Origin: Flavobacteriales bacterium
GTDB lineage: Bacteria; Bacteroidota; Bacteroidia; Flavobacteriales; CAJXXR01
Direction of reading: 5' to 3'
Assembly: GCA_025210805.1 (NCBI GenBank)
Contig: JAOAQX010000007.1
Coordinates: 1-64,000 of the forward strand
Length of the DNA stretch: 64,000 bases
This document shows positions 8,461 to 45,163 of this stretch, piece by piece (position 1 is the stretch's first letter; each line of letters opens with the position of its first letter). The notes under the pieces are model-generated. The model searched no databases and was not told the origin of the DNA. It saw only the letters and a program-made list of their open reading frames with translations. The translations under genes were made by a program, and so were the position numbers.

Positions 8461-8653
8461 ATACCTCAAGTTTATAGAAATTGTATGGCTCTTATTCGCT
8501 GCTTTTTGTTTGGTGGAAGCCATTATCAGATTTTCCAATGGAAACACACAAAAAGGTTGGATGTTCCTTGTGGGACTTATCATGGGAATCATTATGTTTT
8601 TCTTGAGAAGAAAATCTCGAAAACACTACGAGAACAAAGATTCTGAAGAATAA
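8447..8653 (+). CDS. small two-helix membrane protein
   Basis: A 68-residue protein with two predicted membrane helices (about residues 8-27 and 38-53) and a charged C-terminal tail (RRKSRKHYENKDSEE). It starts inside the last 14 bp of lptC and ends 7 nt before the CNNM transporter gene, so it is an operon member and probably real. I do not recognise a named family, and no function can be read from the sequence. Confidence 0.75.
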   Translation: MKIAKYLKFIEIVWLLFAAFCLVEAIIRFSNGNTQKGWMFLVGLIMGIIMFFLRRKSRKHYENKDSEE

Positions 8654-8660
8654 CTTATAA

Positions 8661-9917
8661 GTGATTTTAGAGTTTTTATATATCGTCATTACTTTATTGT
8701 TTTCCGCATTCTTTTCGGGAATGGAGATTGCTTTTGTTAGTTCTAATAAACTCTATATTGAACTCGAGAAATCAAAGGGGAATTTTCAGGCAAAAATTAT
8801 TTCAAAATTCTTAGAAAAACCTAGTGAATTTATCTCTACAATGCTTGTGGGAAATAATATTGCCTTAGTGATCTATGGTCTTCTAATGGCGAAAATTCTC
8901 AATGAAACATTATTTCAAAGCATTCATGAATCATCACCTTTTTTGGCTTTATTACTCAATACAATCCTTTCTACAGGAATTGTATTATTAACAGCCGAAT
9001 TTTTACCGAAGGTAGCCTTTAATAAAAATGCAAATTTTCTGTTGAAATTCTTTAGTGTTCCCGCTATAATAATTTATTATTTGCTACGACCTTTAGTCTT
9101 AATATTCTCTCTAATATCTAGACTAATATTAATGATTTTGGGGCAAAAAATAGAAACAGAAGAAATTAATTTTAGTAGAAAAGACCTAGAATCCTATCTG
9201 CAAGAACACACCTCTAATATCTCTGAAGATGAGGAAGTAGATAGCGAAATTCAAATTCTTCAAAATGCGCTTGAATTTAACACCATTAAAGCAAGAGAAT
9301 GTATGACTCCTCGAACAGATATTATCGCAGTATCTGAGGAAGAACCCATAGAAACACTCAACGCTCTTTTTGTAGAAAATGGTTTTTCTAAAATATTGGT
9401 GTATAAAGACAATGTGGATCATATTCGGGGATATGCGCATATTTATGATTTATTCAAAAAACCTTCAAGTATTAAAGAAATCACCAATGATATTGCTTTA
9501 ATACCCGAATCTATGCCTGCCAATGATATTTTAAATTTGTTTACTAAAGAACGAAAAAGTATTGCTTTAGTTATTGATGAATTTGGAGGTACCGCAGGAC
9601 TCATTACTCTTGAAGATGTGGTGGAAGAATTGATAGGAGAAATTGAAGATGAACACGACCAAGAAATGATTCTTGAAAAACAAGTAAATGAAAATGAATA
9701 TCTGCTCTCTGCAAGGCATGAAATTGACTACCTTAATCAAGAATATGAGTGGAATTTACCAGAATCCGATGAATACGAAACACTCGGGGGACTTATGTCA
9801 ATCTTATTAGAGAAAATACCTGAAGAGGGGGAAACCTTATTCGTAAACGATATTGAAATCACCGCCATAAAAGTAAGCACCAATGTAATAGAAGAAGTTC
9901 ATATCAAAATCTTCTAA
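8661..9917 (+). CDS. CNNM/CorC (HlyC family) transporter
   Basis: A 418-residue protein. A DUF21/CNNM membrane domain covers residues 1-160 (FFSGMEIAFVSSNKL, NNIALVIYGLLMAKIL, TAEFLPKVAF). A CBS pair follows at about 200-330 (ARECMTPRTDIIAV, ALVIDEFGGTAGLITLEDVVEELIGEIEDEHD), and a C-terminal CorC_HlyC domain closes the protein (ETLGGLMSILLEKIPEEGETL). Related proteins transport or regulate Mg2+ and other divalent ions; the older name haemolysin is misleading. The start is GTG: no ATG lies upstream of the first helix. The flavobacterial gliding protein GldE has the same architecture, but its usual neighbours gldD and ssb are absent, so I do not use that name. Confidence 0.88.
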   Translation: MILEFLYIVITLLFSAFFSGMEIAFVSSNKLYIELEKSKGNFQAKIISKFLEKPSEFISTMLVGNNIALVIYGLLMAKILNETLFQSIHESSPFLALLLNTILSTGIVLLTAEFLPKVAFNKNANFLLKFFSVPAIIIYYLLRPLVLIFSLISRLILMILGQKIETEEINFSRKDLESYLQEHTSNISEDEEVDSEIQILQNALEFNTIKARECMTPRTDIIAVSEEEPIETLNALFVENGFSKILVYKDNVDHIRGYAHIYDLFKKPSSIKEITNDIALIPESMPANDILNLFTKERKSIALVIDEFGGTAGLITLEDVVEELIGEIEDEHDQEMILEKQVNENEYLLSARHEIDYLNQEYEWNLPESDEYETLGGLMSILLEKIPEEGETLFVNDIEITAIKVSTNVIEEVHIKIF

Positions 9918-40557: not shown

Positions 40558-41616
40558 CTACTCAGAATCACTCTCTCCATGATTCCATCCTTGTGCCACA
40601 AGTGGTAAAATTTCTTCAGAATTCGTAATGATATGATGCCCCGAAGCTTCATCGGTAATATGTCCGATGACAGAAAGATGCGGGTTTCCTTTTATTTTTT
40701 CAAAGTCATCCATAGAAATAGTAAAAAGAAGTTCGTAGTCTTCTCCCCCATTGAGTGCGGGTGTAAGCGGGTGAATTTGAAATTCCTCAGACTTGTGTAT
40801 TAAAGTAGGGTCCATTGGGATTTTATTTTCATAAATTCTACATCCTACCTTAGATTGTGTACAAATATGAAGTAAATCAGACGAAAGTCCATCAGAAACA
40901 TCGATCATGGCGTGTGGCTTGATTTCCATTTTTGCAAGTAAATCAATGATGTCTAAACGAGCCTCGGGTTTCAATTGTCTTTCCAGTAGATAGGAATCTT
41001 CTTCATTTAACTGTGGTTGCATATTAGGATTTACCTTAAACACTTCTTTCTCTCTTTCAAGAAGTTGTAAACCCATATAAGCACCTCCAAGATCTCCCGA
41101 AACAACGATTAAATCATTTTCCTGAGCTCCAGAACGGTAAGTTATTTGTGTGTCGGATACTTTTCCTATGGCGGTAACAGAAATCATCATCCCTGATAGA
41201 GAAGAAGAGGTGTCTCCACCCACTAAATCTACCTGAAAATGCTTACATGCTAATCGAATTCCTTCATATAAAGCCTCTAAAGCTTCTACAGAGAAGCGAC
41301 TAGAAACGGCAATAGAAACGGTAATTTGCGTGGGCTTGGCATTCATTGCACAGATGTCAGAAACATTTACTGCAACTGCTTTATATCCTAAGTGTTTGAG
41401 TGGAGCATAACTTAAATCAAAATGTACGCCTTCTACCAAAAGATCCGTGGAAACAACCATTTTTTCGGTACCACAATTAATCACAGCTGCATCATCTCCT
41501 ATTCCCTTGAGTGTGCTTTTGTTTTGATTTTGAAAGTTTTTGGTAAGATGATCTATGAGTTTAAATTCACCCAAAGATCCTATCGTTGTCAGGTTGGTAT
41601 CTTTATTTTCAAACAT
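40558..41616 (-). CDS. thiL: thiamine-monophosphate kinase
   Basis: A 352-residue ThiL that phosphorylates thiamine monophosphate to the coenzyme TPP. Family regions are GIGDDAAVI, VSTDLLVEGVHFDLSYAPLKHLGYKAVAVNVSDICAMNA, LVGGDTSSS and MIDVSDGLSSDLLHI, and the C-terminal GGEDYELLFTI. The order matches the AIR-synthase fold with Mg-binding Asp residues. A -7 box TAATTTTG lies upstream on the minus strand (41641-41634). No thiamine riboswitch is visible near it. Confidence 0.95.
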   Translation of the reverse strand: MFENKDTNLTTIGSLGEFKLIDHLTKNFQNQNKSTLKGIGDDAAVINCGTEKMVVSTDLLVEGVHFDLSYAPLKHLGYKAVAVNVSDICAMNAKPTQITVSIAVSSRFSVEALEALYEGIRLACKHFQVDLVGGDTSSSLSGMMISVTAIGKVSDTQITYRSGAQENDLIVVSGDLGGAYMGLQLLEREKEVFKVNPNMQPQLNEEDSYLLERQLKPEARLDIIDLLAKMEIKPHAMIDVSDGLSSDLLHICTQSKVGCRIYENKIPMDPTLIHKSEEFQIHPLTPALNGGEDYELLFTISMDDFEKIKGNPHLSVIGHITDEASGHHIITNSEEILPLVAQGWNHGESDSE

Positions 41617-41704: not shown

Positions 41705-41812
41705 ATTTACCCATGAGTTTTCGTTTCTTTTTCGAGGTATTTAGTTGTAGAACATCTCCCTTTCCATCCCGAAATACCGGGAAGACTTTTCAGTGTGTAA
41801 ATTAACACCGTA
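41705..41812. repeat. dispersed repeat, short copy
   Basis: Its left part (ATTTACCCAT, TCGTTTCTTTTTCG, then GTTGTAGAACATCTC near 41744-41758) and its right part (CAGTG.GTAAA..AACACC near 41791-41810) match the ends of the element at 49441-49705. The inner section differs and contains a small hairpin TCCCG/CGGGA (41767-41782). It lies directly upstream of the toxin-antitoxin promoter. Confidence 0.6.
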
Positions 41813-41834
41813 AGTGATACAAATAAATTTTCCG

Positions 41835-41861
41835 TAATTTTGATAGTATCATAGTGATACT
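41835..41861 (+). promoter_or_regulatory. toxin-antitoxin promoter -7 box and palindromic operator
   Basis: TAATTTTG at 41835-41842 matches the Bacteroidota -7 box; the -33 region reads GTG, not TTG. It is followed at 41845-41861 by a perfect 7-bp inverted repeat AGTATCA-TAG-TGATACT covering the likely transcript start. A further half site GTGATAC lies at 41814-41820. Such palindromes near the start are the usual binding site of an autoregulating antitoxin. Confidence 0.6.
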
Positions 41862-41873
41862 CAACAATGCACT

Positions 41874-42140
41874 ATGAAAACTCTAAATACTGTAAGTATG
41901 TATGCATTAGATATTGATAAAAATGATTTTTTTGAGCGTTTGTCCTCTCTATCTCAAGAAAGCCAACGGATTATTTTCAATAAAATTTCTGAATTACGAG
42001 AAGAAGAAGAAAAAGAAGAAAAGCTACTGTTAGAAGCCATAAAAGAGGGTGAAGAAAGTGGTATCTCGGAAATAACAGACATTAAGGGATTCATAAATAA
42101 CATGTATCAAGAAGCTAAAAACAATGAACAAAATGCCTAA
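41874..42140 (+). CDS. putative ParD-like antitoxin
   Basis: An 88-residue acidic protein. The C-terminal part LLLEAIKEGEESGISEITDIKGFINNMYQEAK resembles the toxin-binding tail of ParD-like antitoxins (EGExSG followed by an acidic phrase and F..NM). The N-terminal half (SLSQESQRIIFNKISELREEEEKEEK) is helical, but I do not see a clear ribbon-helix-helix. It is assigned mainly because it overlaps a ParE-like toxin frame at its 3' end and is preceded by a palindromic operator. Confidence in the pair is higher than in the exact family. Confidence 0.65.
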   Translation: MKTLNTVSMYALDIDKNDFFERLSSLSQESQRIIFNKISELREEEEKEEKLLLEAIKEGEESGISEITDIKGFINNMYQEAKNNEQNA

Positions 42141-42437
42141 GCTATTTCGTTTATCTGTAAAAGCTATCAATGATTTACAAAATGTGTTTAAATACACCTT
42201 AGAAAACTGGGGAGCAGAACAAGCTAAAAAATATACCCTTTTTATTGAGTCCTCATTTGAACAAATAGGTATTAATGATTTCTTTGTTAAAGAACTGAAC
42301 ATATCATCAAAAAACAGAATTTTAAATATTATTTTTACCTCGTTAAAAAACACCGAGTTATTTTGAAAGAGGAAAGTGAATATTATTTAGTTCTTCGTAT
42401 TCTACACCAATCTATGGATACGAAAAGACATTTGTAG
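42133..42437 (+). pseudogene. ParE-like toxin gene disrupted by a frameshift
   Basis: The first part (PKLFRLSVKAINDLQNVFKYTLENWGAEQAKKYTLFIESSFEQIG) is a typical ParE/RelE N-terminus, but its frame stops at 42366 after an unfamily-like tail. A different frame, open from 42291 to a TAG at 42435-42437, reads NFKYYFYLVKKHRVILKEE and then EYYLVLRILHQSMDTKRHL, the classic ParE C-terminus (HxVIxY...IVRILHQRMD). Joining the frames near 42300 by a single base gives about 101-104 residues, the normal ParE length. ATG 42133 overlaps the antitoxin stop by 8 bp; ATG 42124 is also possible. It is a decayed toxin, a sequencing error or a frameshifted product. Confidence 0.78.
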
Positions 42438-42566
42438 ATTCATGTTTTTTCTAATCTTTTGTAAAAAAAGGAATTACAATAAATTAAAACTCAATTAAGC
42501 TGTATTATAGGTTGTGATAATTTTAAGCTTTCTATATAATTTAGGTAGGAAAAATAATCAATATGT

Positions 42567-42995
42567 TTAATCCGTGCTTTTCTCCAAGAAATAGAAATAT
42601 TTGAATAAAATGGTTCTAAGCTTTGGAAATCCCTTAGGGTTTCTAAAGAAATCCTGAACCTGTTCCCAAGTTATTTTGAGAGATTGAAGGAGATCTTGAA
42701 GACTAAGTTGAAACTTATCCAGTTGATCAAAAAGCCATTTTTTATCAATGAATTGAGTGCGGGGTTGGTAGGTCTTTATTTCGAAACGGATACTGTTGGG
42801 TAGGTTTTCATATCGGAAAGCCTTCTGTAATAAATCTAAAATGCTTGTCTCAGTACGAAAACCAATTCGGAGATTCATCTGTTCTGCTTTGATTCTTATT
42901 TTCCCATTTTCTTCTTGAGTTTTTACACGGATACCTCCATAAAGCTCTAGCTTTTCTAATCTTGAAAGTGTGATGTTTTGCCAAATTGTTTCCAT
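42567..42995 (-). CDS. conserved-looking protein of unknown function
   Basis: A 142-residue protein (METIWQNITLSRLEKLELYGGIRVK...), with a beta-rich N-terminal half and a helical C-terminal half (WLFDQLDKFQLSLQDLLQSLKITWEQVQDFF). I recognise no family. I chose ATG 42995 over ATG 43019 because a -7 box TACCTTTG (43024-43017 on the minus strand) overlaps the longer start. It ends 129 bp from the disrupted toxin, and recG follows upstream on the same strand. Confidence 0.6.
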   Translation of the reverse strand: METIWQNITLSRLEKLELYGGIRVKTQEENGKIRIKAEQMNLRIGFRTETSILDLLQKAFRYENLPNSIRFEIKTYQPRTQFIDKKWLFDQLDKFQLSLQDLLQSLKITWEQVQDFFRNPKGFPKLRTILFKYFYFLEKSTD

Positions 42996-43051: not shown

Positions 43052-45163
43052 CTAAGAAATCTGGCTCCAGCCTATGATCTTTTTATAAGATTCAATTAAA
43101 TATTTTCGGGTCATTTCGTGAATGGCTAAGCTGAGGTTATGATCTTTTTCAAGGCTTTTAATGGCGTATTGACGTGCCATTTGCAATTCTTCTCTATTCT
43201 TTATTAAGCTGGCAATTTTAAAATCCATCATTCCACTTTGGCGCGTACCCATCAAATCTCCTGGCCCTCGAAGAGTGAGATCGGCTTCCGATATTTTAAA
43301 ACCGTCGTTGGTTTCTACCATTGTTTTCATACGGAACTGCGTGTCTTTGCTCAATTTATAACCCGTCATGAGTAAACAATAACTTTGCTCACTTCCTCGC
43401 CCCACTCTTCCCCTAAGTTGATGGAGTTGAGAAAGTCCGAAGCGTTCGGCACTTTCAATAATCATTACGGAAGCATTGGGAACGTTTACCCCTACTTCTA
43501 TCACCGTAGTTGCCACCATAATATCGGTTTTTCCCTCGGCAAATTCATTCATTTCACGCTCTTTGTCACTGGCTTTCATTTTCCCATGAACAATACTTAC
43601 GCTATAATCTGGTGCTGGAAAATCTCTAATAATGGCTTCAAAACCTTTTTGAAGATTGGCAAAATCCATTTTTTCGTTTTCCTCAATTAAGGGATATACA
43701 ATATAAACCTGTCTTCCTTTGGCTATTTCTTTTCGGATAAACTGAATGACTTCCAAACGTCTATTTTCTTTAAAATGTCTGGTCACAATTTCTTTTCTTC
43801 CTGGCGGAAGCTCATCAATAACCGAGAGATCCAAATCTCCATAATGACTCATTGCCAAAGTACGTGGAATAGGCGTGGCGGTCATGATGAGAATATGGGG
43901 AGGTTTGGTGTTTTTTTTCCACATTTTGGCTCTTTGAGCTACACCAAAACGATGTTGCTCATCGATAACGGAAATTCCTAAGTTCTTAAAAACTACTTTA
44001 TCTTCCAAAATGGCATGAGTTCCTACCAAAATATGAATACTTCCATCTCTCAGGCCTTCATCTATTTCTCGCCTTTCCTTAGTTTTGGTAGATCCTGTAA
44101 GGATTCTCACATGAATATCGGTAGTTTCCAGCATTTCCTTTATAGACTGATAATGCTGTTGAGCCAAAATCTCTGTGGGAGCCATAAGTGTTGCTTGGAA
44201 ATCATTATCCAAAGCCAAAAGCATACTCATGAGTGCCACAATGGTTTTTCCGCTTCCTACATCTCCTTGAACCATGCGGTTCATTTGCTGCCCCGATTTC
44301 ATGTCTTGATGAATTTCCTTCAAAACTCTTTGTTGCGCTCCTGTAAGCTGGAAAGGAAGAATATTTTTAAAAAAATGATTGAAATGGGCACCCACTTTTT
44401 CAAAAACGAATGAAGTATTTTTCTTTTTGTTACTGATTTTTTTGAGCAAAAGAACTAATTGTTGAAAATAAAATTCTTCAAAAATGAGTCTTCTTTTTGC
44501 TTCTGCTAAATGTCTTTGACTTTTGGGATGATGAATATGAAAAAGAGCCGCTTTTCTACTCAAGAACTTTTGTTCTCTCACGATATAAGAAGGAAGATTT
44601 TCATAGAGGTAAGGATGAATTTGTTCCAAAAGTCCGTAGATACTTTTGCTAATAACAAGACTGCTAAACCCCGATTTTTTTAGTTTTTCGGAACTGGGAT
44701 AAATGGCTTGTAATCCTGCCCGAAATTTATCATTTCCTTCTGTGAGCTCCTCTATTTGAGGATGCATCATTTGCCATTCGTGGTTAAATAGCTTGGGTTT
44801 ACCAAAAATGAGATAGTGTTTCCCTATTTTAATTTTACTTTTTACAAAATTGATTCCTTGAAACCAAGTAAGACTCATGCTTCCTGTGTCGTCTTCAAAT
44901 TCTGCTTTAAGGCGTTTTTTTCTACCACTACCTTCTTCGAAAATGGCTGTTATTTTTCCCTTTATCTGTACTTCAGCACCCGAATTGACCAACTCATTGA
45001 TATGGAAAAACTGAGTTTTGTCTATATATTTACTTGGAAAAAACTGTAATAGATCCTTATACTTTCGAACACCGAAAGCTGCTGCCAAAAGTTGGGCTCT
45101 TTTGGCTCCTATTCCCTTTAGGAATTCTACGGAAGTGTGAAAAAGGTGTTCTCTACTCTGCAT
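43052..45163 (-). CDS. recG: ATP-dependent DNA helicase RecG
   Basis: A 703-residue RecG that drives branch migration and fork regression. The N-terminal wedge with an OB fold runs to about residue 240 (LKGIGAKRAQLLAAAFGV; AEVQIKGKITAIFEEGS). Then come Walker A QGDVGSGKTIVA, the DEQH box ISVIDEQHRFGVAQR, MTATPIPRTLA, and motif VI QLHQLRGRVGRGSEQSYC. The C-terminal LTLRGPGDLMGTRQSG is the TRG-motif region of RecG. Length is normal. A -7 box TAAATTTG is present upstream at 45190-45183 on the minus strand. Confidence 0.96.
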   Translation of the reverse strand: MQSREHLFHTSVEFLKGIGAKRAQLLAAAFGVRKYKDLLQFFPSKYIDKTQFFHINELVNSGAEVQIKGKITAIFEEGSGRKKRLKAEFEDDTGSMSLTWFQGINFVKSKIKIGKHYLIFGKPKLFNHEWQMMHPQIEELTEGNDKFRAGLQAIYPSSEKLKKSGFSSLVISKSIYGLLEQIHPYLYENLPSYIVREQKFLSRKAALFHIHHPKSQRHLAEAKRRLIFEEFYFQQLVLLLKKISNKKKNTSFVFEKVGAHFNHFFKNILPFQLTGAQQRVLKEIHQDMKSGQQMNRMVQGDVGSGKTIVALMSMLLALDNDFQATLMAPTEILAQQHYQSIKEMLETTDIHVRILTGSTKTKERREIDEGLRDGSIHILVGTHAILEDKVVFKNLGISVIDEQHRFGVAQRAKMWKKNTKPPHILIMTATPIPRTLAMSHYGDLDLSVIDELPPGRKEIVTRHFKENRRLEVIQFIRKEIAKGRQVYIVYPLIEENEKMDFANLQKGFEAIIRDFPAPDYSVSIVHGKMKASDKEREMNEFAEGKTDIMVATTVIEVGVNVPNASVMIIESAERFGLSQLHQLRGRVGRGSEQSYCLLMTGYKLSKDTQFRMKTMVETNDGFKISEADLTLRGPGDLMGTRQSGMMDFKIASLIKNREELQMARQYAIKSLEKDHNLSLAIHEMTRKYLIESYKKIIGWSQIS

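Follow-up and report, generated by a model that had tools for sequence, protein, structure and literature searches.

Layout of the locus

The window analysed here is a 64,000-nucleotide stretch from an AT-rich Flavobacteriales genome that is available as a draft assembly of 34 contigs. At positions 41845-42437 it holds a parDE-type toxin-antitoxin pair, made up of an operator palindrome, an open gene for a ParD-like antitoxin and a ParE gene that is spread over two reading frames (Table 1). A thiL-like gene flanks the operon on one side; on the other, recG lies beyond an uncharacterised ORF for which neither a Pfam nor an NCBIfam match was found. The rest of the window is filled by long ORFs, and its remaining genes appear intact. 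A second genome, the only other one from this family, has no toxin-antitoxin pair adjoining recG, an arrangement that is uninformative on the lesion described below.

Table 1 Features of the parDE-type locus, its neighbours and the paralogous operon (window positions unless a contig is given)
Feature	Position	Strand	Remarks
AIR-synthase-family (thiL-like) gene	40558-41616	minus	flanks the operon on one side
-7 promoter element TAATTTTG	41835-41842	plus	fits TAnnTTTG; conserved in the paralogous operon
Operator-like palindrome AGTATCATAGTGATACT	41845-41861	plus	AGTATCA-TAG-TGATACT; perfect 7-3-7, 17 bp
ParD-like antitoxin, 88 aa, open	41874-42140	plus	ORF; Pfam ParD_antitoxin (PF03693), E 2e-4
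ParE frame 1, 80 aa	42124-42366	plus	N-terminal half correct as far as about 42290-42315, with the frame lost beyond
Lesion zone	42289-42326	plus	frame-aware alignment, landmark spacing and DNA alignment to paralog; breakpoints approximate
ParE frame 2, C-terminal half	42291-42437	plus	conserved H and RxLHQxMD residues of the family present
A AAA AAC heptamer	42309-42315	plus	phased so that a -1 slip would lead out of frame 1 and into frame 2
Uncharacterised ORF, 150 aa	42567-43019	minus	between the toxin-antitoxin locus and recG
recG	43052-45163	minus	beyond the uncharacterised ORF
Sister parDE-like operon	contig C5, about 8650-9240 (L018:1151-1760)	minus	identical 17-bp operator; open antitoxin

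A first-pass annotation of this DNA had described the antitoxin gene as open and the promoter-operator as present, and both descriptions hold: the antitoxin ORF runs uninterrupted over 88 codons, and the palindrome lies ahead of it. The promoter element upstream of the palindrome fits TAnnTTTG, the Bacteroidota -7 consensus. The antitoxin scores 22.2 bits with the ParD profile, for which the cut-off is 21, and the match covers its C-terminal half only. The N-terminal half, encoded at 41874-42010, has no ParD profile match, and it is possibly an unusual DNA-binding half. A structure model, inspected for a ribbon-helix-helix fold, predicts helices at residues 16-24 and 28-61, its first residues being modelled with low confidence, and has a mean pLDDT of 71.5. 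No clear relative of the antitoxin was found outside this genome in a search of 395 Bacteroidota genomes, plasmids and viral contigs.

The toxin gene is split

The proposal of the first-pass annotation that two overlapping frames together encode one ParE is confirmed by profile matches to complementary parts of the family. Frame 1, whose ATG at 42124 lies upstream of the start given previously and within the antitoxin gene, matches positions 2-40 of the 89 positions of Pfam ParE_toxin (PF05016) with an E-value of 2.4e-5, above the cut-off, while frame 2 (42291-42434) matches positions 56-88 with an E-value of 0.0044, which taken alone is below the curated cut-off. That the second frame is open from 42291, as had been stated, follows from the stop at 42288-42290 that precedes it; no start of its own was found for this frame except a late TTG. 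The single ORF of about 90-105 codons expected of a ParE gene is not found here, frame 1 meeting its stop codon at 42364-42366. The toxin of a paralogous operon elsewhere in the genome matches the two frames separately, with 48% and 56% identity, and an unrelated -1 frame would be open for 48 codons with a chance of only about 2.6% in the window's genes, which together indicate more than a chance resemblance. All residues that are invariant in a small ParE alignment are kept in frame 2, with no second lesion, and we therefore regard the lesion as probably recent.

Past the lesion, frame 1 encodes residues that have no counterpart in the family. Homologues using the first frame alone as far as its stop at 42366 had been named previously as an observation that would speak against a split gene; we looked for them among the aligned homologues and found none. 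A split at the same place is likewise absent from all aligned homologues, and the paralog is unsplit there.

Size and place of the lesion

To measure the lesion we used the spacing between two conserved landmarks, QA and H, in 109 ParE homologues (29 from Flavobacteriales and 80 from a bacterial genome collection), of which 102 allowed the measurement. The spacing is 38 codons in 65 of these, 37 codons in 36 and 40 codons in one. In the window it amounts to 125 nt, whereas 101 of the 102 homologues have 111 or 114 nt; the net excess is 11 nt relative to 38 codons or 14 nt relative to 37. A frame-aware DNA alignment to the family profile, in which gaps of odd length were allowed, returned a net +11 nt under all nine penalty settings. 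Compared with the shorter paralog alone, whose QA-to-H distance of 36 codons is itself two codons below that of most of the family, the net loop excess is 17 nt, made up of 3 and 14 nt, and its phase is the same. The extra bases are placed at 42316-42326 by the family alignment and at about 42292-42305 by the alignment to the paralog. The ancestral length of the toxin is estimated here from homologues at most 45% identical to the paralog and from the shorter paralog, the genus being represented by one genome, and no lesion-free allele of the window's toxin was found.

These measurements revise the earlier suggestion that a single-base change near 42300 would restore a protein of normal length. 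A single-base lesion would imply a QA-to-H stretch of 42 codons, longer than in any of the 102 homologues, and is for this reason the less likely form. We also considered whether the extra bases arose by a local tandem duplication, and set this aside, no fitting direct repeat being present in 41800-42600.

A paralogous operon and other toxin-antitoxin loci

The sister operon on contig C5 resembles the window's operon most closely at its 5' end: promoter, operator and first antitoxin half are 85% identical over 235 nt, and the first 45 antitoxin codons 90%. The two operons are more diverged further downstream, where residue identity is 42% in the C-terminus of the antitoxin and 53-56% in two toxin stretches; over their whole length the antitoxins are 66% identical. 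For the antitoxin pair we obtained a dN of 0.24 and a dS of 0.80 (dN/dS about 0.3; small samples, saturated in places), and for the first 45 codons a dN of 0.06 and a dS of 0.39 (dN/dS 0.15; small samples), values that point to purifying selection on the antitoxin after the copies separated. The C-terminal piece of the toxin gave a dN/dS of about 0.4, again from small samples that are saturated in places.

The paralogous toxin has an open frame of 92 codons, all along which it matches ParE. Its initiation region nevertheless reads ATG AAT AAG TAA, placing a stop at codon 4; in the first 45 codons after this TAA there is no ATG, GTG or TTG. The paralogous toxin thus appears to be disabled too, by a different lesion from that of the window's ParE. 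In both copies the toxin was probably maintained by selection through most of its history, its failure being recent.

Exact copies of the operator occur in the genome only at the two parDE operons, here and at C5:9204-9220, so that the two may plausibly be cross-regulated, while nothing points to a larger regulon. Two further sites differ by one mismatch, where about 0.5 would be expected by a rough estimate; one of them, at C5:247906, lies inside a gene. These two sites could be due to chance, and we did not retain the idea of a regulon for the antitoxin beyond the two operons.

Six ParE/RelE loci were found in the genome, with a damaged toxin in three and no visible damage to any adjoining antitoxin. 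A canonical parDE on contig C29 is intact, and further relatives on C10 and C28 are open. At C11:103330-103700 (L137), a RelE-like toxin gene carries two frameshifts relative to its homologues, next to an open antitoxin gene.

Toxin decay and its alternatives

We consider it likely that ParE was inactivated by a recent small insertion, with antitoxin and operator kept, in what is a chromosomal type II parDE operon. The locus combines an open antitoxin with a disrupted toxin whose relic is still legible. An insertion at about 42289-42326, with a net gain of 11 or 14 nt, would put ParE out of frame, and ribosomes would read on in frame 1 to the stop at 42364, producing the N-terminal helical part without the rest of ParE; this shortened product would be expected to be non-toxic and is probably degraded. 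The antitoxin would still be made, and would bind its own operator as well as that of the paralogous operon. It may be useful in its own right, by neutralising incoming ParE toxins or through cross-regulation, or may merely be undecayed. That the sister copy also appears to have lost its toxin, by a different lesion, points to ordinary toxin decay. The first-pass annotation had left the choice between a decayed toxin with a retained antitoxin and a toxin expressed only through frameshifting; the former is the better supported, with a frame-1 ending that is unmatched among homologues and with the paralogous and a third toxin broken as well.

An assembly or sequencing error in an otherwise intact gene is unlikely. 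While a draft assembly in 34 contigs leaves room for such errors, a net 11-14 nt is atypical of base-calling or homopolymer errors, the long ORFs across the rest of the window argue against a generally poor assembly, and two further toxins in the genome are broken in other ways.

We regard it as highly improbable that programmed -1 slippage, whether ribosomal or transcriptional, joins the frames at low frequency at the A AAA AAC heptamer, with full-length toxin arising only in this way and in small amounts and the pair being throttled, although this half of the earlier proposal does find some footing in the sequence. The canonical heptamer stands in the exact phase required, and with 15 in-frame occurrences in the 18,864 codons of the window's genes it would be met by chance in about 1.9% of overlaps of 24 codons; moreover, ParE residues are kept in both halves, and neither half contains a further stop. 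The predicted downstream fold is slightly better than those of shuffled sequences, with a z of -1.83 and 9 of 200 shuffles as good, and thus not clearly beyond them. Against slippage, the A run of the heptamer encodes Lys-Lys in frame 2, matching the Lys-Lys of the paralog, and an upstream lesion of the right phase would therefore yield the heptamer for free from the ParE frame's own codons. The joined product would also contain the 42-codon loop seen in none of the 102 homologues, no aligned homologue is split there, as conservation of the slip site among relatives would demand, and the different lesion of the paralog could not be bypassed by slippage. If slippage did occur, it would constitute an unusual, built-in limit on toxin dose.

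That the 80-residue frame-1 ORF is a functional short ParE variant ending at 42366 is hardly credible: although its frame is open and its start lies within the antitoxin gene, its residues after the lesion are foreign to the family, the true C-terminus is legible in frame 2, and C-terminal truncation alone already lowers ParE toxicity in reported cases (PMC11925232).

Comparison with known systems

The locus resembles parDE type II operons (PF03693/PF05016; solved ParE1, PDB 8c24 and 3kxe) in that the antitoxin comes first and is overlapped by the toxin gene, a palindrome lies ahead of both, and ParE sequence is found in both toxin halves. It differs from them in that the toxin is out of frame and that the antitoxin's N-terminal half is unmatched by the ParD profile. 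Familiar cases of programmed -1 frameshifting at A AAA AAC/G are dnaX and IS elements. The locus shares with these a heptamer in the correct phase, but its downstream structure does not clearly exceed shuffled sequences, its site is unconserved, and the joined product would be unusually long.

It is well known that antitoxins can outlive their toxins, and the locus fits the known pattern in which, among chromosomal toxin-antitoxin pairs, decay of the toxin precedes that of the antitoxin. Orphan antitoxins are common. They have been regarded as remnants undergoing degradation or as anti-addiction factors, and a third proposed role is to interact with other toxins (Klebsiella survey PMC7192599; review PMC7354431). 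As in such degraded pairs, an antitoxin is kept here beside a degraded toxin. What sets the present case apart is that two paralogous operons with one operator appear to have lost their toxins by different lesions, both antitoxins being open, which would make it a clean example of its kind.
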